A stretch of DNA of 64,000 nt from Thomasclavelia ramosa DSM 1402. GTDB lineage: Bacteria; Bacillota_I; Bacilli_A; Erysipelotrichales; Coprobacillaceae. Position numbers and translations under genes: made by a program. This document shows positions 40,665 to 53,681 of this stretch, piece by piece. The stretch lies in assembly GCF_014131695.1 (NCBI RefSeq), contig NZ_CP036346.1, positions 1 through 64,000 on the forward strand, given 5' to 3'. Numbering within the stretch: position 1 is the first letter of the stretch; every line of letters begins with the position of its first letter. Under the pieces are notes generated by a model, which was not told where the DNA came from, did no database searches, and was given only the letters and a program-made list of their open reading frames with translations.

Positions 40665-40881
40665 TGGAAAAAGCGAAGATGGGAAGATGTTAAAGTGGCG
40701 CATATAGAGACTTAGTGGCAGGTGGAAACTAAGAGTTAAACTTTAAGTGATGGCCCCGGAGCTGTTATCTTGAATAGTTAAAGATAATCGTTTGACTTGC
40801 GTTAAAAGTATTGAGTGACACAGCAATGTGTAAAAAAGGTGGTACCGCGATTATTCGTCCTTTTATTAGGGCGTTTTTTTA
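40665..40881 (+). promoter_or_regulatory. T-box leader of metG
   Basis: The T-box sequence AAGGTGGTACCGCG (40836-40849) is diagnostic, followed by the terminator CGTCC/GGGCG with T7 (40856-40880). Upstream, GGCAGGTGGAAACTAAG is the stem I apical region and AAGTGATGGCC gives a candidate specifier AUG at 40750-40752, matching methionine. Uncharged tRNA-Met should stabilise the antiterminator and allow metG expression. A TTGACT -35 lies at 40630-40635. Confidence 0.93.
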
Positions 40882-40905: not shown

Positions 40906-42837
40906 ATGAAGAATGAAAAAGATTATTATTTAACAACTGCAATTACATATACTTCAGGAAAACCTCATATTGGAAATACTTATGAAATTATTTTAGCAGA
41001 TGCAATTGCTCGATTTAAAAGACAAGAAGGATATAATGTTTATTTCCAAACTGGGACAGATGAACATGGTCAAAAAATTGAGTTAAAAGCTAAAGAAGCA
41101 GGAATCCCGCCAAAGCAGTTTGTTGATGAAAAAGCTGGTGAAGTAAAAAGAATTTGGGATTTAATGGATACTACATATGATCGATTTATGAGAACGACTG
41201 ATGATTATCATAAGTCACAAGTACAAAAAATCTTCAAAAAATTATATGATCAAGGGGATATTTACTTAGGTCATTATGAAGGTAAATATTGTACGGCTTG
41301 TGAATCATTTTTTACAGAATCACAACTAGTAGATGGAAAATGTCCAGACTGTGGAGGTGAAGTCCATGATGCTAAGGAAGAAGCATATTTCTTTAAATTA
41401 TCAAAATATGCTGATCGTTTAATTGAACATATTGAAACACACCCTGAATTTATTCAACCAGTATCACGAAAGAATGAAATGATGAATAATTTTTTAAAAC
41501 CAGGATTACAAGATTTATGCGTATCAAGAACCTCATTTACTTGGTCGATTCCCGTAGATTTTGATCCTAAACATGTTGTTTATGTATGGATTGATGCATT
41601 AAGTAACTATATTACAGGATTAGGGTATGATGTCGATGGTAATCATGGCGAATTATATCAAAAGTATTGGCCTGCAGATCTACATTTAATTGGTAAAGAT
41701 ATTGTGCGTTTCCATACTATTTATTGGCCAATTATGCTAATGGCTTTAGATATTCCTTTACCTAAACAAGTATTTGGACATCCATGGTTATTACAAGGTG
41801 AAAGTAAAATGTCAAAATCAAAAGGAAATGTAATCTATGCAGATGATTTAGTAGACATTTTTGGTGTAGATGCAGTTAGATATTATGTTTTACATGAAAT
41901 TCCATATGATAATGATGGAAGCATCACCTGGGATCTTTTAGTAGAAAGAATTAATTCTGATTTAGCTAATGTCTTAGGAAATTTAGTAAATCGTACTATT
42001 GCTATGTCAAATAAATACTTTGGCGGAATTGTTAATAACCCAAAAGTTACAGAAGCAGTTGATGATGAGTTAATTGAAATAGCATTAGCAATGCCTAAAA
42101 AAGTAATTGGTAAGATGGATGAATTTAAGTCATCTGATGCCCTTGATGCCATCTTTACATTATTAAGAAGAACTAATAAATATATTGATGAAACAATGCC
42201 ATGGGCGCTTGCTAAAGATGAAACAAAAAGGGATCGTTTAGCGACAGTTCTTTATAACTTAATTGAAAGTATTCGTTTTGCAGCGATTGCGTTAATTCCA
42301 TATATGCCATCTACTGCTAATAAGATTTTAGATCAAATTAATACTGATCAAAGAGATTTATTAGCTTTAGATACTTTTGGAACATATAAAGAAGGTACCA
42401 AAGTAGCTGAAAAACCAGAAATGTTATTTGCTCGTTTGGATCCAAAAGAAATTCAAAAGAAAGTAGAAGCATTGCAACCGGCAAAACCAGAAGTAAAAGA
42501 AGAACCAAAAGAAGATAATACAATTACTATTGATGACTTTAAGAAAATTGAATTAATTGTTGGAACAGTAGAAGAATGCAAAAAACATCCGGATGCTGAT
42601 AAATTATTAGTATCACAAATTAATTTAGGAAAAGAAACAAGACAAATTGTTAGTGGTATCGCTGATCATTATACTCCGGAAGAATTCGTTGGTAAAAAAG
42701 TAATTGTTGTAGCAAACTTAAAACCAGCTAAACTACGAGGGATTGAGTCACAAGGAATGATTTTAGCTGGAGATAAAAAGGGATTATTAGAAGTAATTAG
42801 CGTTGAAAATTTACCAAACGGGACAAAAATACATTAA
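40906..42837 (+). CDS. metG: Methionyl-tRNA synthetase
   Basis: A 643-residue class I synthetase. It has the HIGH-type motif YTSGKPHIGNTYE, the Cys4 zinc knuckle CTACESF and CPDCGG, the KMSKS motif SKMSKSKGNVIY, and the anticodon-binding helical domain. A C-terminal OB-fold tRNA-binding domain (about 535-643, beginning FKKIELIVGTVEECKKHPDA) promotes dimerisation, after a charged linker rich in K, E and P. Start after AAAGGAG. Expression is controlled by the T-box in its leader. Confidence 0.97.
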   Translation: MKNEKDYYLTTAITYTSGKPHIGNTYEIILADAIARFKRQEGYNVYFQTGTDEHGQKIELKAKEAGIPPKQFVDEKAGEVKRIWDLMDTTYDRFMRTTDDYHKSQVQKIFKKLYDQGDIYLGHYEGKYCTACESFFTESQLVDGKCPDCGGEVHDAKEEAYFFKLSKYADRLIEHIETHPEFIQPVSRKNEMMNNFLKPGLQDLCVSRTSFTWSIPVDFDPKHVVYVWIDALSNYITGLGYDVDGNHGELYQKYWPADLHLIGKDIVRFHTIYWPIMLMALDIPLPKQVFGHPWLLQGESKMSKSKGNVIYADDLVDIFGVDAVRYYVLHEIPYDNDGSITWDLLVERINSDLANVLGNLVNRTIAMSNKYFGGIVNNPKVTEAVDDELIEIALAMPKKVIGKMDEFKSSDALDAIFTLLRRTNKYIDETMPWALAKDETKRDRLATVLYNLIESIRFAAIALIPYMPSTANKILDQINTDQRDLLALDTFGTYKEGTKVAEKPEMLFARLDPKEIQKKVEALQPAKPEVKEEPKEDNTITIDDFKKIELIVGTVEECKKHPDADKLLVSQINLGKETRQIVSGIADHYTPEEFVGKKVIVVANLKPAKLRGIESQGMILAGDKKGLLEVISVENLPNGTKIH

Positions 42838-43538
42838 TGGCTTCTTTATATCCATTTATTAAAGAGGATATTCTTAAAGATATCCAAAGTGGAGTTTATC
42901 AAGAAGATAAAATGCTTCCACCTGAACGAGAATTCACTGAAAAATATCGAGTATCAAGAATGACAATTCGTCGAGCTTTAGATGAATTGATTCAAGATGG
43001 AGTTTTAATTAGAAAGTCTGGCAGTGGTGTTTTTATTGCTAAAAATAAAAAGTCACGTAGTATTTCTAAAGTATCAATCCAAACTGATGAAGAAATTGTT
43101 AAAACTTATGGTAAAGTTATAATTAAGGTAGTCTCTATAAAAACAGTTGTAAATCATCCTTTAGCACTTAGATATCTTGATGTTAAAACTGATGAGGAAG
43201 TATATCAGTTAAAGAGAGTTCAATATGGTGGTAAAACTCCAATTGTCTATGAAAATATTTTCTTACCCAAACGCTATTTTAATTCACTAGATAAGATTGA
43301 TTGCACAAGATCAATGAGCCAAATTGTTCATGAAACAATAAAAGTTAAAGAGGCAACCAATCGTTCAATTGAGGTTGAGGCACGGTTAGCATCTAAAAAA
43401 CTTGCAACATATTTAGAAGTTGCTAAGAATGCTCCAATCTTGCAAACAACAATTATTGAAAAGAATGCTGAAAATAATCCTTTATATTGTGGTGTCAATA
43501 GTTTTGATGCTACCGAATTTAAATATACATCTGAGTAG
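42837..43538 (+). CDS. GntR family regulator with UTRA domain (HutC type)
   Basis: A 233-residue regulator. The N-terminal winged helix-turn-helix reads MLPPEREFTEKYRVSRMTIR and ALDELIQDGVLIRKSGSGVF. The C-terminal UTRA ligand domain (about 85-230) has YQLKRVQYGGKTPIVYENIF. UTRA-type regulators usually sense sugar phosphates or amino acid catabolites. Its ATG shares one base with the metG stop, so it is cotranscribed with metG; that partner is unusual and gives no hint of the target. No strong ribosome binding site is visible. Confidence 0.9.
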   Translation: MASLYPFIKEDILKDIQSGVYQEDKMLPPEREFTEKYRVSRMTIRRALDELIQDGVLIRKSGSGVFIAKNKKSRSISKVSIQTDEEIVKTYGKVIIKVVSIKTVVNHPLALRYLDVKTDEEVYQLKRVQYGGKTPIVYENIFLPKRYFNSLDKIDCTRSMSQIVHETIKVKEATNRSIEVEARLASKKLATYLEVAKNAPILQTTIIEKNAENNPLYCGVNSFDATEFKYTSE

Positions 43539-46096: not shown

Positions 46097-46285
46097 TATA
46101 AAAAACTCCCAACTATAAAATTATATCAATTTAATTTTATCATTACCGTAAAAATAAACAATTAAATAATTGGGTACATAAGCATATAGTAGAAAGATTT
46201 TTTTTGTGATAAAATTATATTTATATAAATAAATCTAAGTAATTTAATATTATGTGCCTATTTAACGATAAAGGAGTTGATCGTA

Positions 46286-47737
46286 GTGAAGCAAAAACAA
46301 ACGTTATTTAATTATTTATACAACAATCTTCATGATTTGATTGTAAGTGGACGTCTTCCTTATGGCTCGAAGCTACCATCAATTTCTGAGTTGTGCGAAT
46401 TTTACAATATTGGAATTCGAACGGTTAAAGATGTATTGCACGTATTAAAAGAAGAGGGCTATATTTCGACCCATGAACGTAAAGCGACAACCGTTGTGTA
46501 TAACATTCATAGTAAATTCAAAGAAGATGGCCTTGAATATGTATTAGAGCATCGTCAGGAAATAATCGATGTGTATAAAACGATTGGTTTAATTATGCCG
46601 GTAATTTTTTCTTTTGCAGCACAGATATGGGATGAAGAAGACTTACAATTATGCTCTCAAAGATTAAAAGAATCAGAAGATAAGAGTGCAGAGGAACGTG
46701 AACGGATATGTACTCGAATATTTTTTGAACTGTTAGATAAATCACATAATCCTTTATTACGAGATATTTTCTCCAGCTTAGAAATATATGCAAGACCAGT
46801 ATTCTTTGTTAATTATGAAAAATATATTAATTATTTTAATTTAGAATATACTTTTAAAAGTATTACATGGGTTGCAAGTTCGTTATTAACTAGGGATAAA
46901 AGTGAAATTGAATATCGTTTTGGTTTAATGTACGATACAGTTATCAATGTTATTGAAAAAACATTAACGGACCTAGCTCTTAAATATCCTGAAATAAAAG
47001 AAATGACACCCAACTATACCTGGTCTGCAGAATTAGGCAGAGATCATTGTTATACACAAATAGCTCGTGATTTAATTAATAAGATCTCATTAGGTATTTA
47101 TCCAGTGGGAAGCTTTTTACCGCCAGAAGCAAAATTAGCTAAAATGTATAAAGTTAGCGTTTCTACAATTAGAAAAAGTCTACATATGTTGAATGAATTA
47201 GGTTTTGGTGAAACAATGAATGTTAAAGGTACTAGGGTAGTGATACAAGATGAGCAGACTGCAATTAAATGTATGCAAAATAAACAATACCGGCAAGATA
47301 CTTTATTATATTTAAACGGTGTTCAGGCAATGGTAATTTTAATCAAAAAAGCTGCAACCTTAGCTTTTCCAAATATTACGCAAGAAAAGATCAAAAATCT
47401 TCAGGGTGAAATAGAAGATTCAAAGAATCTTATGTTGGAATGTTTGCTTAATTGTATAGTTGACAATTTACCACTGTTACCGTTTAAAACAATTATACAA
47501 GAAACTAATAAAATTATTTATTGGGGTTATTATTTTGCTTTTTACCCAAGTGAAAAGCAAAGTATTAATATAATTAACATTAAAAGTAAAAAGGCATTAG
47601 AATATCTTTGCTTAGGTGAAGCAGAATGTTTTGCTGACGAAATATCATCGAGTTATAATCATTCACTTAATGTTGTTCGTGATTATTTAATTGAATATGG
47701 TTTAGGAGAGGCTAAAAATATTATTTCACCGGAATAA
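46286..47737 (+). CDS. GntR-type regulator with two DNA-binding domains
   Basis: A 483-residue protein with a GntR winged helix at the N terminus (about 1-70: SGRLPYGSKLPSISELCEFY, NIGIRTVKDVLHVLKEEGYI) and a second one near residues 250-320 (LGIYPVGSFLPPEAKLAKMY, KVSVSTIRKSLHMLNELGF). Each is followed by an all-helical region of about 160-175 residues of unknown fold. Two GntR heads in one chain is rare. GTG 46286 is chosen because AAGGAG lies 9 bases upstream. A terminator follows, then the corrinoid operon 90 bases on, which it probably regulates. Confidence 0.85.
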   Translation: MKQKQTLFNYLYNNLHDLIVSGRLPYGSKLPSISELCEFYNIGIRTVKDVLHVLKEEGYISTHERKATTVVYNIHSKFKEDGLEYVLEHRQEIIDVYKTIGLIMPVIFSFAAQIWDEEDLQLCSQRLKESEDKSAEERERICTRIFFELLDKSHNPLLRDIFSSLEIYARPVFFVNYEKYINYFNLEYTFKSITWVASSLLTRDKSEIEYRFGLMYDTVINVIEKTLTDLALKYPEIKEMTPNYTWSAELGRDHCYTQIARDLINKISLGIYPVGSFLPPEAKLAKMYKVSVSTIRKSLHMLNELGFGETMNVKGTRVVIQDEQTAIKCMQNKQYRQDTLLYLNGVQAMVILIKKAATLAFPNITQEKIKNLQGEIEDSKNLMLECLLNCIVDNLPLLPFKTIIQETNKIIYWGYYFAFYPSEKQSINIINIKSKKALEYLCLGEAECFADEISSSYNHSLNVVRDYLIEYGLGEAKNIISPE

Positions 47738-47767
47738 AGTTATATTTATAGAAATATAACTTTTTTA
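47737..47767 (+). terminator. Terminator of the two-headed GntR gene
   Basis: AAGTTATATTT and AAATATAACTT form an 11-bp perfect stem with ATAG loop, overlapping the stop, then T6. Confidence 0.85.
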
Positions 47768-47828
47768 TTTCAGAAAATTGTATAGACAATAATATATTTA
47801 TGATATGATATATATAGAGGTGAATATG

Positions 47829-48839
47829 ATGGAAATAGAAAAATGGCTAAATGATGTATTAGAGAAGAAAAATAAACGAGCAATGCCAATAATTACCTTT
47901 CCAGCAGCAACAAAGTTAAACATCAGTGTCAAAAAATTAATTAATGATACCGATCAACAAGTTGCAGCTCTTAAGATAATTAAAGAGGAGTGTAATCCAT
48001 TAGCAATTTTAGGTTTTATGGATTTATCGGTTGAAGCAGAATGTTTTGGTGCAGAAATAAAGGTTACTGATAACGAAGTACCGACAGTAGTTGGTCAATT
48101 AATTGAAGATGAAGATGATGCTCAGGCATTAAAGGTTCCTGCAGTGGGAAGCGGTCGAAGTCAATTATATATTGATGCAATCAAAAAAACTAAAGCAGAA
48201 ATTAAAGATATCCCTATTTTGGGAGGTTGTATTGGTCCGTTTAGTTTGGCTGGTCGTTTAATGGATGTAAGTGAAGCAATGATCAATTGTTATGAAGAGC
48301 CAGAAATGGTACATATTGTATTAAAAAAGGCTACAAAATTTTTGATCGACTATATTTCAGCGTATAAAGAAGCTGGAGCTGATGGAATTTTAATGGCAGA
48401 ACCACTAGCTGGGGTGCTATCGCCAGTTTTGGCGACTGAATTTTCTAGTACCTATGTAAAAAAGATAGTTACAGCAGTTCAAGATGAAAATTTTATGGTC
48501 GTATACCATAATTGTGGTAATAATACTTTAAAAATGATTGATGATTTTAAAGAAATTAAAGCACGAGCATATCATTTTGGTAATGCTATTAACATAAAAA
48601 AAATGCTAGAACTAATGCCAAAGGATTGTCTTGTTATGGGAAATATAGACCCAGTGGAAATAATTAGTAACGGAACCCCAGAAACAATCAAAGAAATTAC
48701 ACTAAATTTATTAAAAGAGTGTAAAGATTATCGTAATTTTATTATTTCGAGTGGTTGTGATATCCCTCCATTAGCCCCATGGAAAAATATTAAAGCTTTT
48801 ATGGAAGTTTGTGAAAATTATTATGAAAACGATTCTTGA
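47829..48839 (+). CDS. MtaA/CmuA-type (URO-D fold) methyltransferase
   Basis: A 336-residue protein of the uroporphyrinogen decarboxylase fold, in the methylcobamide methyltransferase group. The zinc-ligand pattern of MtaA/MtbA is present: the H-x-C in VVYHNCGNN and a later cysteine in SSGCDIPP. GCIGPFSLAGRLMDVSEAM and MAEPLAGVLSP are typical. True decarboxylase is unlikely because no haem genes are nearby and the next genes are corrinoid-linked. It probably moves a methyl group to or from the corrinoid protein. ATG 47829 gives the best spacing to GAGGTG. The downstream gene overlaps its end. Confidence 0.88.
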   Translation: MEIEKWLNDVLEKKNKRAMPIITFPAATKLNISVKKLINDTDQQVAALKIIKEECNPLAILGFMDLSVEAECFGAEIKVTDNEVPTVVGQLIEDEDDAQALKVPAVGSGRSQLYIDAIKKTKAEIKDIPILGGCIGPFSLAGRLMDVSEAMINCYEEPEMVHIVLKKATKFLIDYISAYKEAGADGILMAEPLAGVLSPVLATEFSSTYVKKIVTAVQDENFMVVYHNCGNNTLKMIDDFKEIKARAYHFGNAINIKKMLELMPKDCLVMGNIDPVEIISNGTPETIKEITLNLLKECKDYRNFIISSGCDIPPLAPWKNIKAFMEVCENYYENDS

Positions 48840-50250
48840 ATATTTACAGGAACAAGATTGTAATTTTATCGCCCCTTGTAATGGTCAAAAAAAATGTGGA
48901 AAATGTAAAGTAAAAGCTACCAATCGAATCATCGAGGTTAATCATGATGATCTAAAACTGCTTACTAAAAAAGAGCTGGATCAAGGATATCGTTTAGCCT
49001 GCAGCCATTTATATCATCAGGGTGACCGATTTATTTTGCCACAAGCAGACGGAGTTATTGAGGATAGTATATATTTAAATGATACCGTAGTAATTACCGA
49101 ACCTGTTGAGAAAGTTGGAATTATCATTGATATTGGAACAACAACAGTAGCAATGAAATGGCTCAATTTAAAAAGCGGAATGATTATTGAAAGTCAGTCT
49201 TTCTTTAATCCTCAAGGCAAATTTGGAAGTGATGTGATTGCTCGAATTGATTTTGATAATCGTGATAATGATCATAAATTAGGTGAACTAATAATTAAAG
49301 AAATATTTAGTCGAATCAATGTGTCTACAAAAATCAAAGAAATATTAGTTTGTGGTAATGCAACAATGATTAATTTGTTTTTAAAAGAAAAGGTAAAAAC
49401 AATTGGAGTATCACCATTTGATGTACCAATCTTAACAATGACTGAATATCCTTTAAATTATTTTATAAAGAGTTCAGTAAAGATTGAAGTTATGACTATG
49501 AATCATATTTCTGCTTATGTGGGGAGTGATATTGTCATGGGAATTTATGCTACTAATATGGATAAAAACAAGGAAAATGTATTACTGATGGATTTGGGAA
49601 CTAATGGTGAGATGGTGATAGGAAATAAGCATCGGCTATTAGCGACATCTTGTCCTGCTGGGCCTGCCTTTGAAGGGGTAAATATTGAATGTGGTGGTCC
49701 AAGTATTGCTGGCGCTGTTTGTGCGACTAAAGTCGAAAATAATAAGCTTGTCTATAAAACAATTGATAATCAAGATGCTAATAGTATCTGTGGTAGTGGT
49801 TTAATTTCTTTAATCGCTAATTTGCTACGTTTAGGAATTATTGATGATACAGGTAATTTTTTAAATAAGCAAAAAAAATACTATTTAAATGATGAAGTAT
49901 ATTTATCAATTAAAGATATAAAAGCTTTTATGTTAGCAAAAGCAGCAATTCAAGCGGGAAAAGAAGTATTATTGAAGGAATTGAATGATGAAGTAACAAC
50001 TATTTATATTGCGGGTGGCTTCGGAAATTATTTGGAGAAAGCGGATCTTGTTACCTTGAATATTATTAGTTCAGAAGAAGCTAACAAAGTTCAATATATT
50101 AAAAATAGTGCTATCAGTGGTCTTTATAAACTAATATTGACACGAGATTTTCAGCGAGTTCAACATATTAGTAATCAAACAAAAGTTATCTATTTAGAAA
50201 AAGATCCTGATTTTAATGATTATTGGATAGATGCGATGGTGTTTTCATGA
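48823..50250 (+). CDS. Corrinoid activation protein (RACE; 2Fe-2S plus DUF4445 ASKHA domain)
   Basis: A 475-residue reductive activator of corrinoid proteins, which returns inactive Co(II) to Co(I) using ATP. The N-terminal ferredoxin-like domain has the cysteine pattern APCNGQKKCGKCKVK with a later cysteine in RLACSH. The C-terminal ASKHA ATPase domain has IIDIGTTTVAMKW, LMDLGTNGEMVIG, CPAGPAFEGVNI and IAGGFGNYLEKAD. The N-terminal domain is slightly short. It overlaps the previous gene by 17 bases from ATG 48823 (a GTG at 48811 is also possible). Confidence 0.92.
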   Translation: MKTILEYLQEQDCNFIAPCNGQKKCGKCKVKATNRIIEVNHDDLKLLTKKELDQGYRLACSHLYHQGDRFILPQADGVIEDSIYLNDTVVITEPVEKVGIIIDIGTTTVAMKWLNLKSGMIIESQSFFNPQGKFGSDVIARIDFDNRDNDHKLGELIIKEIFSRINVSTKIKEILVCGNATMINLFLKEKVKTIGVSPFDVPILTMTEYPLNYFIKSSVKIEVMTMNHISAYVGSDIVMGIYATNMDKNKENVLLMDLGTNGEMVIGNKHRLLATSCPAGPAFEGVNIECGGPSIAGAVCATKVENNKLVYKTIDNQDANSICGSGLISLIANLLRLGIIDDTGNFLNKQKKYYLNDEVYLSIKDIKAFMLAKAAIQAGKEVLLKELNDEVTTIYIAGGFGNYLEKADLVTLNIISSEEANKVQYIKNSAISGLYKLILTRDFQRVQHISNQTKVIYLEKDPDFNDYWIDAMVFS

Positions 50251-50888
50251 TAAAAGTTATTGCTTGCAAAATATACGAATATTATATTTCACAACTAGAC
50301 TTATCACTTGATAATTATGAATTTGTATATCTAGATATACAACAACATAATCAACCACATACTTTAGCAAAAAATATCCAAAAAGAAATTGATAAGAGCA
50401 GGGGGGATGAAAAAATAATTGTTTTATACGGACTTTGCGGTAATGCTTTAGTTGAAATACAAGCACGCAATATTCCTGTATATCTAGTTAGAGTGCATGA
50501 TTGTTTAACTGTTTTATTGGGGAGCAAACAGCGATTTAAACAATTATTTTCAAATCGCTTGTCTTCTTCATGGAGCTGTTATAGTTTAAAAGTTAATGGC
50601 TGTAATGTTTATGAAGATGAACAATATTTAAAGTGGTGTCAGCGATACGATCAAGAAACAGCAGACTATTTGAAATCCCAATTACAAACGCAGGATAATG
50701 TATACCTAATTTATAATTATTGTGACGATGTTCCTTTTCTTAAAAATCAGGAACAAATTAAAATAGATTTAAAATTTTTAAAACAAATATTATTACAAAC
50801 TAGCAATGAATTAGTAATTTTAGAAAAAAATCAAAAAGTTGTAATTAGTAGTGATATCGATCAAGTATTTGAGATAATGGAGGAGTAG
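50247..50888 (+). CDS. DUF1638 protein
   Basis: A 213-residue protein with the DUF1638 pattern: IVLYGLCGNALVEIQARNIP, RVHDCLTVLLGSKQRFKQLF, and a following SSSWSCYSL region. It has conserved cysteines (CGN, HDC) but no known enzymatic motif. DUF1638 genes occur almost only in corrinoid methyltransferase operons; the molecular role is not established. The start ATG 50247 overlaps the upstream stop in an ATGA arrangement. Confidence 0.85.
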   Translation: MIKVIACKIYEYYISQLDLSLDNYEFVYLDIQQHNQPHTLAKNIQKEIDKSRGDEKIIVLYGLCGNALVEIQARNIPVYLVRVHDCLTVLLGSKQRFKQLFSNRLSSSWSCYSLKVNGCNVYEDEQYLKWCQRYDQETADYLKSQLQTQDNVYLIYNYCDDVPFLKNQEQIKIDLKFLKQILLQTSNELVILEKNQKVVISSDIDQVFEIMEE

Positions 50889-50890
50889 AA

Positions 50891-51523
50891 ATGATTGAAG
50901 AAATTAGTGAATTAATTCAAAAAGGACAAGCTAAAAAGGTTGTCAAATTGGTAAATGAAGCTTTAGAAGCTGGCTTTCCAGCAACGGATATTCTTAATCA
51001 GGGGTTGTTGAAAGGTATGGATGCCATTGGTGTAAAATTTAAAAATGAAGAAGTTTTTGTTCCCGAAGTATTAGTTGCAGCTCGGGCGATGAATAAGGGA
51101 ATCGAGATTTTAAAGCCATATTTACAAGATACGGAACATCAAAGTAAGGGAACCGTTATTCTCGGTACTGTAAAAGGTGATCTTCACGATATTGGAAAAA
51201 ATTTAGTTAAGATCATGTTGGAAGGAAAAGGTTTAGAAGTAGTTGATTTAGGTGTCGATGTAGATGCACAAAAATTTGTTGAAGAAGCAAAAATACATCA
51301 AGCACAAATTATCTGCTGTAGTGCTCTTCTAACAACGACAATGCCAGAAATGAAAAAAGTAGTTGATTTAGTTGCTCAAGAACATTTAAATGTTAAAGTT
51401 ATGATTGGTGGAGCACCTGTTAATCAAGATTATTGTAATGAAATAGGCGCTGATTATTATACAGATGATGCCACTAGTGCAAGTGAAGTTGCTTATGCAA
51501 TCGTGGGAGGTACGTTATGTTAA
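50891..51523 (+). CDS. Corrinoid-binding methyltransferase protein (MtaC/MttC type)
   Basis: A 210-residue carrier of the cobamide cofactor. The N-terminal helical cap (about 1-85) has FPATDILNQGLLKGMDAIG and the B12 domain has the lower-ligand motif GDLHDIGKNLVKIMLEGKG (the D-x-H-x-x-G signature), VDLGVDVDAQKFVEEA and MIGGAPVNQDYCNEIGADYY. It shuttles the methyl group between the two methyltransferases. Start after GGAGGAG. It overlaps the next gene by seven bases. Confidence 0.95.
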   Translation: MIEEISELIQKGQAKKVVKLVNEALEAGFPATDILNQGLLKGMDAIGVKFKNEEVFVPEVLVAARAMNKGIEILKPYLQDTEHQSKGTVILGTVKGDLHDIGKNLVKIMLEGKGLEVVDLGVDVDAQKFVEEAKIHQAQIICCSALLTTTMPEMKKVVDLVAQEHLNVKVMIGGAPVNQDYCNEIGADYYTDDATSASEVAYAIVGGTLC

Positions 51524-52614
51524 CTAAAGCAAAAAAAGAACAGTTAGTTGAAGATTTTGAAAAATGGTGGGAGCATAAATTAGAACGGCCAATTATTCAA
51601 GTAACTTTATTTGATGAAGATTATCAACCTCAAAAACACCGATATAATCGAGGGGAATTATTAGAAATGCTATATGATTTAGATAAGCCGGTTAATGAGG
51701 TAGTTCAAGCATATCAAGAAACATTTTTTTCGAATATTTATTTGGGTGATGCTTTTCCTATCTTTTATATGCGCTCAACCGGAGTTTTAGGAGCCTATTT
51801 AGGTCAAACTTATCATATTGATGTAAAACAAGGGACAATTTGGTTTCAAGAAATGAAAGGATGTGAGTTAGAAGATATTCATCCTCGCCTAGAGGAAACA
51901 TATCCCTTATATCAAAGATCATTAGAACTAATCAAAGCATTTAATCAGTTTTATGGAGATGATATTGCAATGGGAATTGCTAATCTTGGAGGAATGATGG
52001 ATATCGTTGAATCAATGAGAGGGGCAAATAACTCACTAATTGATTTATATGATGATCCTGATGAAGTTCAACGTTTAAATGATGACATTTACAAAGCATT
52101 TGAACAAGCCTATGAAGAGATGATTGCTAGTATTGATTTAAATAATACTTTGGGTTATACCGGATGGATCAGTCTATTATCACAAAAACCATATTTTATT
52201 TCTCAATGCGATTTTTGTTGTATGATTGGTCCAGAGCAATTTGATGAGTTTGTTTTTGAAACCTTAAAGAAAGAGGCATCCTTGATTGAGCGTTCATTCT
52301 ATCATTTAGATGGTCCTGGTGCAGTACGTCATCTTGATAAGATCATTGAATGTGGTTTTAAAGGAATTCAATGGATCAATGGTGCTGGAGCAAAACCATT
52401 AAATGATCCTTGCTGGAATGAAATTTATCAAAAAGTACATGATGCGGGCTTACTACTACAAGTTAATATAAGTGGCAAAGAAGAATTAGAATATATTGAT
52501 TATATTGTTGATTATCTTGGAAGTCCTAAAGGTATTGCTTTTATTTGTACTGGCAGCAGTAAAGATAAAGAAGCCTTTGAAGCTTATTTAGAAAAATATC
52601 ATATTCCTAATTAA
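51517..52614 (+). CDS. Second URO-D-fold methyltransferase (substrate side, MT I-like)
   Basis: A 365-residue protein of the uroporphyrinogen decarboxylase fold. Compared with the zinc methyltransferase at the operon start, the H-x-C position reads FYHLDGPGAVRHLD, so one zinc ligand is Asp or missing. Such proteins encoded beside corrinoid proteins are the substrate-specific component (MT I) in O-demethylase systems. The WWEHKLERPIIQVTLF start is typical. The methyl donor is unknown. A terminator follows, so this is the last gene of the operon. Confidence 0.85.
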   Translation: MLTKAKKEQLVEDFEKWWEHKLERPIIQVTLFDEDYQPQKHRYNRGELLEMLYDLDKPVNEVVQAYQETFFSNIYLGDAFPIFYMRSTGVLGAYLGQTYHIDVKQGTIWFQEMKGCELEDIHPRLEETYPLYQRSLELIKAFNQFYGDDIAMGIANLGGMMDIVESMRGANNSLIDLYDDPDEVQRLNDDIYKAFEQAYEEMIASIDLNNTLGYTGWISLLSQKPYFISQCDFCCMIGPEQFDEFVFETLKKEASLIERSFYHLDGPGAVRHLDKIIECGFKGIQWINGAGAKPLNDPCWNEIYQKVHDAGLLLQVNISGKEELEYIDYIVDYLGSPKGIAFICTGSSKDKEAFEAYLEKYHIPN

Positions 52615-52640
52615 GTACCATAATCGTGGTACTTTTTTTA
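52613..52640 (+). terminator. Corrinoid operon terminator
   Basis: AAGTACCA and TGGTACTT pair around TAATCG, overlapping the last stop, then T-run. Confidence 0.88.
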
Positions 52641-52703: not shown

Positions 52704-53681
52704 ATGCAGTTACCAGAAAAAGTAGAACTGGCTTTTTTACCAACACCAATATATAAACTAGAGAAGTTATCTAAACAATTCCAAAAAAATATTTATATAA
52801 AAAGAGATGATTTAACTGGAATAGAAACATCGGGTAATAAAATTAGAAAGTTAGAATATTCATTGAGAGAAGCATTTGAACAAGGTTGTGATTTAGTCAT
52901 TACTTGTGGGGGGATGCAGTCAAATCATGCTCGTGCAACAGCCTATGCCGCAGCTAAGTTATCAATGAAAAGCTGCTTATTACTTCGTGGCAATGGAAGT
53001 AGTGAGCCAGTCGAAGGAAACTATTTTTTAGACCGCTTAGTTGGTGCAGATATTGTTATCAAAGAACCTGAAATTTTTAATCGTGATAAGGATAAGATCA
53101 TGCTGAAATTAAAAACTGCCTATGAAGCTAAAGGATATAAACCATATATTATTCCAATGGGAGCAAGTAATGGAATTGGTACTTTAGGTTATGTTGAAGC
53201 TTTTACAGAAATCTTAAAACAAGAAGAAGCTATGAAAGTAGAATTTGATACAATTATTGATGCTGTTGGCAGTGGGGGGACTTATGCAGGTTTATATATT
53301 GGAAATGAGCTTAATCGTACTAAAAAACAAATTATTGGATTTAATATTTGCGATGATAAGGAATACTTTATTAAGGAGATAACAAAAATTATTAAAGAGG
53401 CGCAAGTATATTTTGATCAGGAAATAAAAACAGAGCGGATCAAGATAATTGATGGTTATGTTGGTCAGGGATATGCTTTAAGTCGAAGTGAAGAACTTGA
53501 TGCTATTGCATCTTTAGCTAAATTAGAAGCAGTAGTATTAGATCCTGTATATACTGGTAAGGCATACTATGGTTTGATCAATGAATTAGAAAAAGGAACG
53601 TTTGTTGATAGTGAAAATATTTTATTTATGCATACTGGTGGAATCTTTGGGCTATTCCCGAAACAAAGTCAATTTAAATAA
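52704..53681 (+). CDS. dcyD: D-cysteine desulfhydrase / ACC deaminase family PLP enzyme
   Basis: A 325-residue PLP-dependent enzyme of the tryptophan synthase beta fold type. The PLP lysine lies in TSGNKIRKLEYSLREA, substrate contacts in CGGMQSNHARATA, and the phosphate loop near AVGSGGTYAGLYIG. Residues after KLEY and the YTGKAYYGL end fit D-cysteine desulfhydrase better than ACC deaminase, but the two cannot be separated with certainty. Start after AAGGGGGA. It is a single gene between the corrinoid operon and a converging ECF gene. Confidence 0.82.
   Translation: MQLPEKVELAFLPTPIYKLEKLSKQFQKNIYIKRDDLTGIETSGNKIRKLEYSLREAFEQGCDLVITCGGMQSNHARATAYAAAKLSMKSCLLLRGNGSSEPVEGNYFLDRLVGADIVIKEPEIFNRDKDKIMLKLKTAYEAKGYKPYIIPMGASNGIGTLGYVEAFTEILKQEEAMKVEFDTIIDAVGSGGTYAGLYIGNELNRTKKQIIGFNICDDKEYFIKEITKIIKEAQVYFDQEIKTERIKIIDGYVGQGYALSRSEELDAIASLAKLEAVVLDPVYTGKAYYGLINELEKGTFVDSENILFMHTGGIFGLFPKQSQFK

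Follow-up and report, generated by a model that had tools for sequence, protein, structure and literature searches.

A five-gene corrinoid operon in Thomasclavelia ramosa

The window analysed here comprises the first 64,000 nucleotides of contig NZ_CP036346.1 of Thomasclavelia ramosa DSM 1402, whose genome is a complete single contig of 3.25 Mb. It contains an operon of five overlapping or closely spaced plus-strand genes encoding a putative corrinoid-dependent methyl-transfer system. The operon comprises the following features:

47826 to 48839, plus strand: Mlp, an MtaA-like URO-D protein (PF01208, 6.4e-57); the open reading frame starts at 47805, the likely start is 47826
48823 to 50250, plus strand: RACE/RamA-type corrinoid activase with a 2Fe-2S ferredoxin domain (PF14574, PF17651, PF00111)
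50247 to 50888, plus strand: DUF1638 protein (PF07796, 3e-21)
50891 to 51523, plus strand: corrinoid protein (PF02607 and PF02310; TIGR02370 at 200.7 bits, cut-off 215.3)
51517 to 52614, plus strand: UroD2, a URO-D-fold protein with His263-x-Asp265 (AlphaFold2 model, PDB fold match and family alignment)
52613 to 52634, plus strand: intrinsic terminator closing the operon (terminator scan; fold)

A first-pass annotation, made from the sequence alone, had described a corrinoid methyl-transfer operon with a donor enzyme, a corrinoid protein, an activase and DUF1638, and this description was supported. Its domain assignments were borne out by Pfam and NCBIfam (URO-D, PF01208, at 47805-48839; RACo domains plus Fer2 at 48811-50250; DUF1638 at 50223-50888; B12-binding cap and domain at 50891-51523), and we agree with it that the methylated substrate cannot be named from the genes. 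The donors that it suggested, among them methoxy-aromatics and betaine-like compounds, are conjectural; no MttB- or MtgB-type gene was found in the operon, nor any transporter conserved beside it. UroD2 is present in 6 of the 316 genomes of the order. Four relatives carry the same five genes in a cluster with shuffled gene order, and the association of the genes is therefore selected rather than inherited synteny.

The two URO-D-fold proteins and the missing folate link

The motifs YHNCG and SGCDIPP reported for Mlp are present; in the alignment they fall on LHICG and APGCG, the ligand segments of MtaA. In the alignment with 4ay7, the metal ligands of Mlp are His-x-Cys...Cys on the URO-D fold, as in MtaA, to which it is 26.4% identical. 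Scores remained below the curated cut-offs (140 of 235 for TIGR01463 and 168 of 244 for NF004889), and Mlp belongs to the MtaA/CmuA superfamily without being a named member of it. An identity as HemE was rejected: Mlp reached 92 of 303 bits with the HemE profile, and HemE sequences carry neither the His nor the Cys ligands in the alignment. In the phylogeny proposed earlier as a check, built from available sequences that did not include known O-demethylases, HemE branched apart at 100/100 while Mlp fell inside a 12-row His-Cys-Cys group (98/90). The genome encodes no other PF01208 protein and therefore lacks HemE altogether. We propose that Mlp is a putative acceptor-side methyltransferase.

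UroD2 had been called a second URO-D protein with an altered ligand site. The altered motif, YHLDGPG, is indeed present; the URO-D fold was recognised only through AlphaFold, as UroD2 had no Pfam or NCBIfam match and no credible match among PDB sequences. The model, based on 16 relatives, has a mean predicted local distance difference test score (pLDDT) of 93. Its closest PDB fold is the methylcobalamin:coenzyme M methyltransferase MtaA, 4ay7 (VIA Z 20.8, root-mean-square deviation 3.2 over 299 residues; 14.8% identity), followed by UROD and then MetE. UroD2 proteins carry His-x-Asp rather than His-x-Cys in the family alignment and form a single clade (100/99), and their profile did not match solved O-demethylase or CdmB sequences. 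One lone UroD2 relative (L044:10740-11825, genome G638) has QSDISYM in place of QCDFCCM. Its neighbour is an AraC-type regulator, and the surrounding stretch that was read contains no corrinoid genes; the family may have other uses.

The distribution of Mlp partners bears on the role of UroD2. In other Bacilli and Erysipelotrichales, members of the window's Mlp clade have different donor-side URO-D partners and occur either in sugar-uptake loci or in simple corrinoid clusters. The ligand pattern of the donor-side proteins in related Bacilli is mostly His-x-Cys, with Asn replacing the second Cys. A constant acceptor module combined with a variable donor enzyme fits this pattern, and UroD2 would therefore be the donor-side enzyme of the window system, a putative methyltransferase. 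Five loci (L087, L088, L089, L090 and L092) contain Mlp or a thioredoxin-fused Mlp with a donor-side URO-D protein among sugar ABC transporter and esterase-like genes, which suggests O-methyl sugars as donors there. The fused proteins belong to a second Mlp group with a C-terminal thioredoxin domain and Phe replacing the ligand His (L063:8785-10140, Pfam-confirmed; also L090, L091, L092, L125 and L127).

O-demethylases, the Cdm system and MtgABC all use a pterin-binding enzyme, methyltransferase II (MT II), to deliver the methyl group to tetrahydrofolate (THF). The corrinoid protein and RACE activator of such systems are present in the window, and the pterin-binding enzyme is not: across the whole 3.25-Mb contig, the only PF00809 protein was MetH (C1:1979556). 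MetH has about 793-795 residues and no fused activation domain; a putative activation protein is encoded separately alongside it, as is a metF-like gene (L015:2111-5962). The first-pass annotation had interpreted the operon as a complete four-component O-demethylase with THF as the possible final acceptor. Neither point was supported, since an MT II of known type is absent from both operon and genome, and a His-Cys-Cys MtaA-like protein is of the wrong kind for THF.

DUF1638 has the conserved residues C7, H34, C64, HDC84-86 and C111 in its alignment. Comparison of its model (pLDDT 79) with the PDB gave nothing significant (Foldseek E 0.03 and VIA Z 6.7 at best). DUF1638 has been tied genetically to B12 reactivation in methionine synthesis of Phaeobacter (PMC5764234), and it increases along with RamA in Ruegeria growing on N-osmolytes (PMC12478193). 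The protein is a putative accessory of corrinoid activation, and both cases set a precedent for methionine synthesis that relies on a stand-alone corrinoid protein.

Operator, regulator and operon borders

The following features lie upstream of the operon:

40667 to 40865, plus strand: T-box leader upstream of metG (Rfam RF00230, 111.2 bits); the specifier triplet aligns to AUG (Met)
40906 to 42837, plus strand: metG, methionyl-tRNA synthetase (PF09334/PF01588/PF19303)
42837 to 43538, plus strand: UTRA-type GntR regulator (PF00392 and PF07702); its start codon overlaps the metG stop (TAATG)
46277 to 47737, plus strand: tandem GntR-domain regulator with two GntR stretches; a separate transcription unit outside the operon
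47738 to 47765, plus strand: intrinsic-terminator-like hairpin with an AT-rich stem and T-run (fold -11.0 kcal/mol), closing the tandem GntR unit
47778 to 47789, no strand: palindromic operator TTGTATAGACAA (consensus TTGTCTAGACAA), present 5' of the leading gene of the cluster in each of the five genomes

In the four relatives, the second half of the operator is the -35 element TAGACA, positioned 17 bp from a good -10 element; overlap with the -35 element would be the arrangement of a repressor site. The UTRA-type regulator is 42-52% identical to the cluster-adjacent regulators of these relatives (L011, L012, L013 and L014), of which it is the ortholog, and it likely controls the operon. A genome-wide search for the perfect palindrome returned one further copy, in G019, 5' of a cobalamin riboswitch and transcobalamin-like, DUF4430 and ECF-like genes. 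In G020, the cluster itself is followed by a cobalamin riboswitch and the same kinds of genes. The predicted regulon thus links methyl transfer with cobalamin supply. No uptake system or transporter for a methylated donor was recovered in the regulon search with TTGTMTAGACAA. A second site in the window genome and sites in G013 and G020 were rejected as regulon members; they are imperfect, lie near unrelated genes and are probably due to chance.

The operon is real, and its first gene starts at 47805/47826. The start at 46286 given by the first-pass annotation falls inside the tandem GntR regulator, which is cut off from the cluster by the hairpin and the operator. The hairpin was not listed by the terminator scan, which requires GC. 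As a candidate regulator of the operon, the tandem protein was rejected: it is missing from the clusters of the relatives, a terminator intervenes, and the UTRA-type regulator fits better. Its architecture is unusual, with two GntR DNA-binding domains in one chain, each with its own C-terminal part. Directly after the operon terminator lies a gene for a pyridoxal phosphate enzyme of the D-cysteine desulfhydrase family (52704-53681, TIGR01275 above cut-off), rejected as an operon member given its position past the terminator and its absence from the clusters seen in relatives.

The methyl acceptor and relation to known systems

Evidence on the acceptor was obtained from relatives. The G204 cluster consists, in order, of RACE, corrinoid protein, UroD2 and a stand-alone homocysteine S-methyltransferase (PF02574, 1e-50), whose best solved relative is the homocysteine domain of Thermotoga maritima MetH (1e-37) and whose Cys motifs are kept. 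No PF01208 protein, and hence no Mlp, was detected in this 93% complete genome. The five Mlp-bearing genomes have one PF01208 protein each, and PF02574 occurs only once, within MetH. Four Armatimonadota contigs likewise contain a UroD2 relative and a stand-alone PF02574-type protein (one, in L024, Pfam-confirmed). Additional URO-D proteins accompany these, as do, so far as the contigs show, MtaB, DUF1638, a corrinoid protein and RACE; DUF1638 and Mlp were found in three of the four. In G011, a T-box, metG, Mlp, a cobalamin riboswitch and DUF4430 follow one another. The homocysteine methyltransferases of G204 and the Armatimonadota, the link of the regulator to metG and its T-box, and the G011 gene order indicate homocysteine and methionine, each line (G204, Armatimonadota, G011) being weak alone. 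The Armatimonadota locus L024:8421-17259, which carries MtaB (PF12176), a UroD2 relative, several URO-D proteins, a homocysteine methyltransferase and DUF1638, is possibly a case of methanol-fed methionine synthesis.

From the genomic evidence, we propose that RACE, with DUF1638, would reduce the corrinoid protein to Co(I). UroD2, with its His-x-Asp site, would then transfer a methyl group to the corrinoid protein from a donor that is probably an O-methyl or other non-thioether compound, and Mlp, with its His-Cys-Cys set, would pass it on to a thiol, most likely homocysteine. The product would be methionine made outside the MetF/MetH folate route. The UTRA-type regulator, coupled to metG behind the T-box, may control the operon through the operator overlapping the promoter -35 element. 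The individual parts are known; their folate-free assembly is unusual. That the acceptor is a thiol of some kind is likely when all thiol readings are summed. A folate-independent chain in which Mlp methylates homocysteine to methionine is, in our estimate, a tentative reading that falls a little short of an even chance. The broader claim, of a PF01208 methyl-corrinoid:homocysteine methyltransferase fed folate-free by a UroD2 donor family and modular across phyla with varying donor enzymes, is possible but doubtful. If true, gut Erysipelotrichaceae would channel methyl groups from a compound of the host or the environment directly to methionine without folate. The URO-D family would then include a methionine synthase and a new family of donor enzymes, and a testable function would be at hand for DUF1638 and for many proteins of gut genomes annotated as 'uroporphyrinogen decarboxylase'.

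Several observations weigh against the proposed chain. The exchange of Mlp for a homocysteine methyltransferase was seen on a single 3.2-kb contig of a metagenome-assembled genome (G204), on which the cluster is cut off upstream, and in Armatimonadota the homocysteine methyltransferase occurs alongside Mlp-like proteins instead of replacing them. The G011 Mlp is ~22% identical to that of the window and sits on a long branch, and a UroD2 relative was not found in G011. The window's own operator carries one mismatch and a poor -10 element. In other Bacilli, the same Mlp clade occurs in sugar-uptake loci without methionine genes, and the host, which has MetF and MetH, has no obvious need of another route to methionine. 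Finally, the His-Cys-Cys set fits any thiol, or a selenol.

This ligand set also underlies the reading in which the chain is the same and Mlp methylates another thiol, sulfide or selenide (giving methanethiol, methylselenol or a methylated protein thiol) for disposal or for sulfur or selenium recycling. In vitro, Mlp2 of Clostridium ljungdahlii methylates selenide and has a weaker activity on sulfide, and such acceptors were suggested for mlp gene clusters by Kountz and Balskus (PMC10418091). The thioredoxin domain fused to related Mlps and the desulfhydrase-family gene shortly downstream would agree with this, but the latter lies past the terminator and was not seen in the clusters of relatives. 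No selenium genes were seen near the cluster, the selenium traits of the genome not having been searched. Homocysteine is favoured by the links to metG and its T-box and by the stand-alone homocysteine methyltransferase domains found together with UroD2. We consider another thiol, sulfide or selenide unlikely as the acceptor, yet the probability is well short of negligible.

The reverse direction was suggested for Mlp2 of type 1 clusters (PMC10418091). In the window system, Mlp would then demethylate a methylthio or methylseleno compound, with UroD2 or an enzyme outside the operon on the acceptor side. This is improbable; a His-Asp carboxylate site suits O-donors and not acceptors, and homocysteine methyltransferases are acceptor enzymes. 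It is also the non-Mlp URO-D protein that varies among related loci, which fits a donor-side role for it. Quite improbable is a classical O-demethylase that moves methyl groups from a methoxylated compound to THF with Mlp or MetH as MT II. The general plan of donor methyltransferase, corrinoid protein and RACE is shared, and MetH, a methyl-THF enzyme, could in principle exchange methyl groups. The genome has no AcsE/MtgA-type PF00809 protein, however, Mlp lies outside the pterin-binding family with a thiol-type metal site, and PF01208 does not recognise UroD2, whose own profile has no match among solved O-demethylase and CdmB sequences.

Among known systems, type 1 mlp gene clusters (Kountz and Balskus 2023, PMC10418091; sdm genes of Methanococcus voltae) share the His-Cys-Cys MtaA-like protein, corrinoid protein and RACE. 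As in these clusters, the corrinoid protein and RACE are co-directional and no THF methylase lies within 20 kb. Type 1 clusters have at least two Mlps (over 25% identity to a coenzyme M methyltransferase), whereas the window genome has one; the other enzyme, UroD2, has the URO-D fold and His-x-Asp but lies outside PF01208 and is ~15% identical to MtaA. DUF1638 is present, and a metG link takes the place of selenium or sulfur genes. O-demethylases and CdmBCA (Odm/Vdm/Mtv; PMC13222342) also have a URO-D-fold donor methyltransferase, corrinoid protein and activase; the window differs in lacking a pterin-binding MT II and in that UroD2 is unmatched to CdmB by sequence.

The search of openly accessible literature found no assignment of a methionine role to a PF01208 protein. 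The closest functional parallels are the core methionine synthases MesA/B/C and core-MetE, zinc enzymes of the URO-D/MetE superfamily shown or predicted to methylate homocysteine with methyl groups carried by cobalamin or a corrinoid protein (PMC7857596, PMC7005905). These are PF01717 proteins (the MetE catalytic domain) with MtrA or CoFeSP as predicted feeders, whereas Mlp is PF01208/MtaA-like with a dedicated corrinoid protein as its putative feeder. The roseobacter split methionine synthase/betaine demethylase (PMC5764234, PMC12478193) resembles the window in its stand-alone corrinoid protein, RACE, DUF1638, methionine product and non-folate donor. It differs in having a pterin-binding subunit and in using an S-methyl_trans protein for homocysteine, where the window system would use a PF01208 Mlp. 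Clusters of a donor-side URO-D protein, corrinoid protein, RACE and DUF1638 were also seen without Mlp at L129:1809-13559 and L130:2480-14000. There, the corrinoid genes are interspersed with genes for a glycyl-radical enzyme, a radical SAM activase and HUMPS-family, SIS-like sugar-phosphate and DeoC-like proteins, a possible degradation locus for a methylated substrate.

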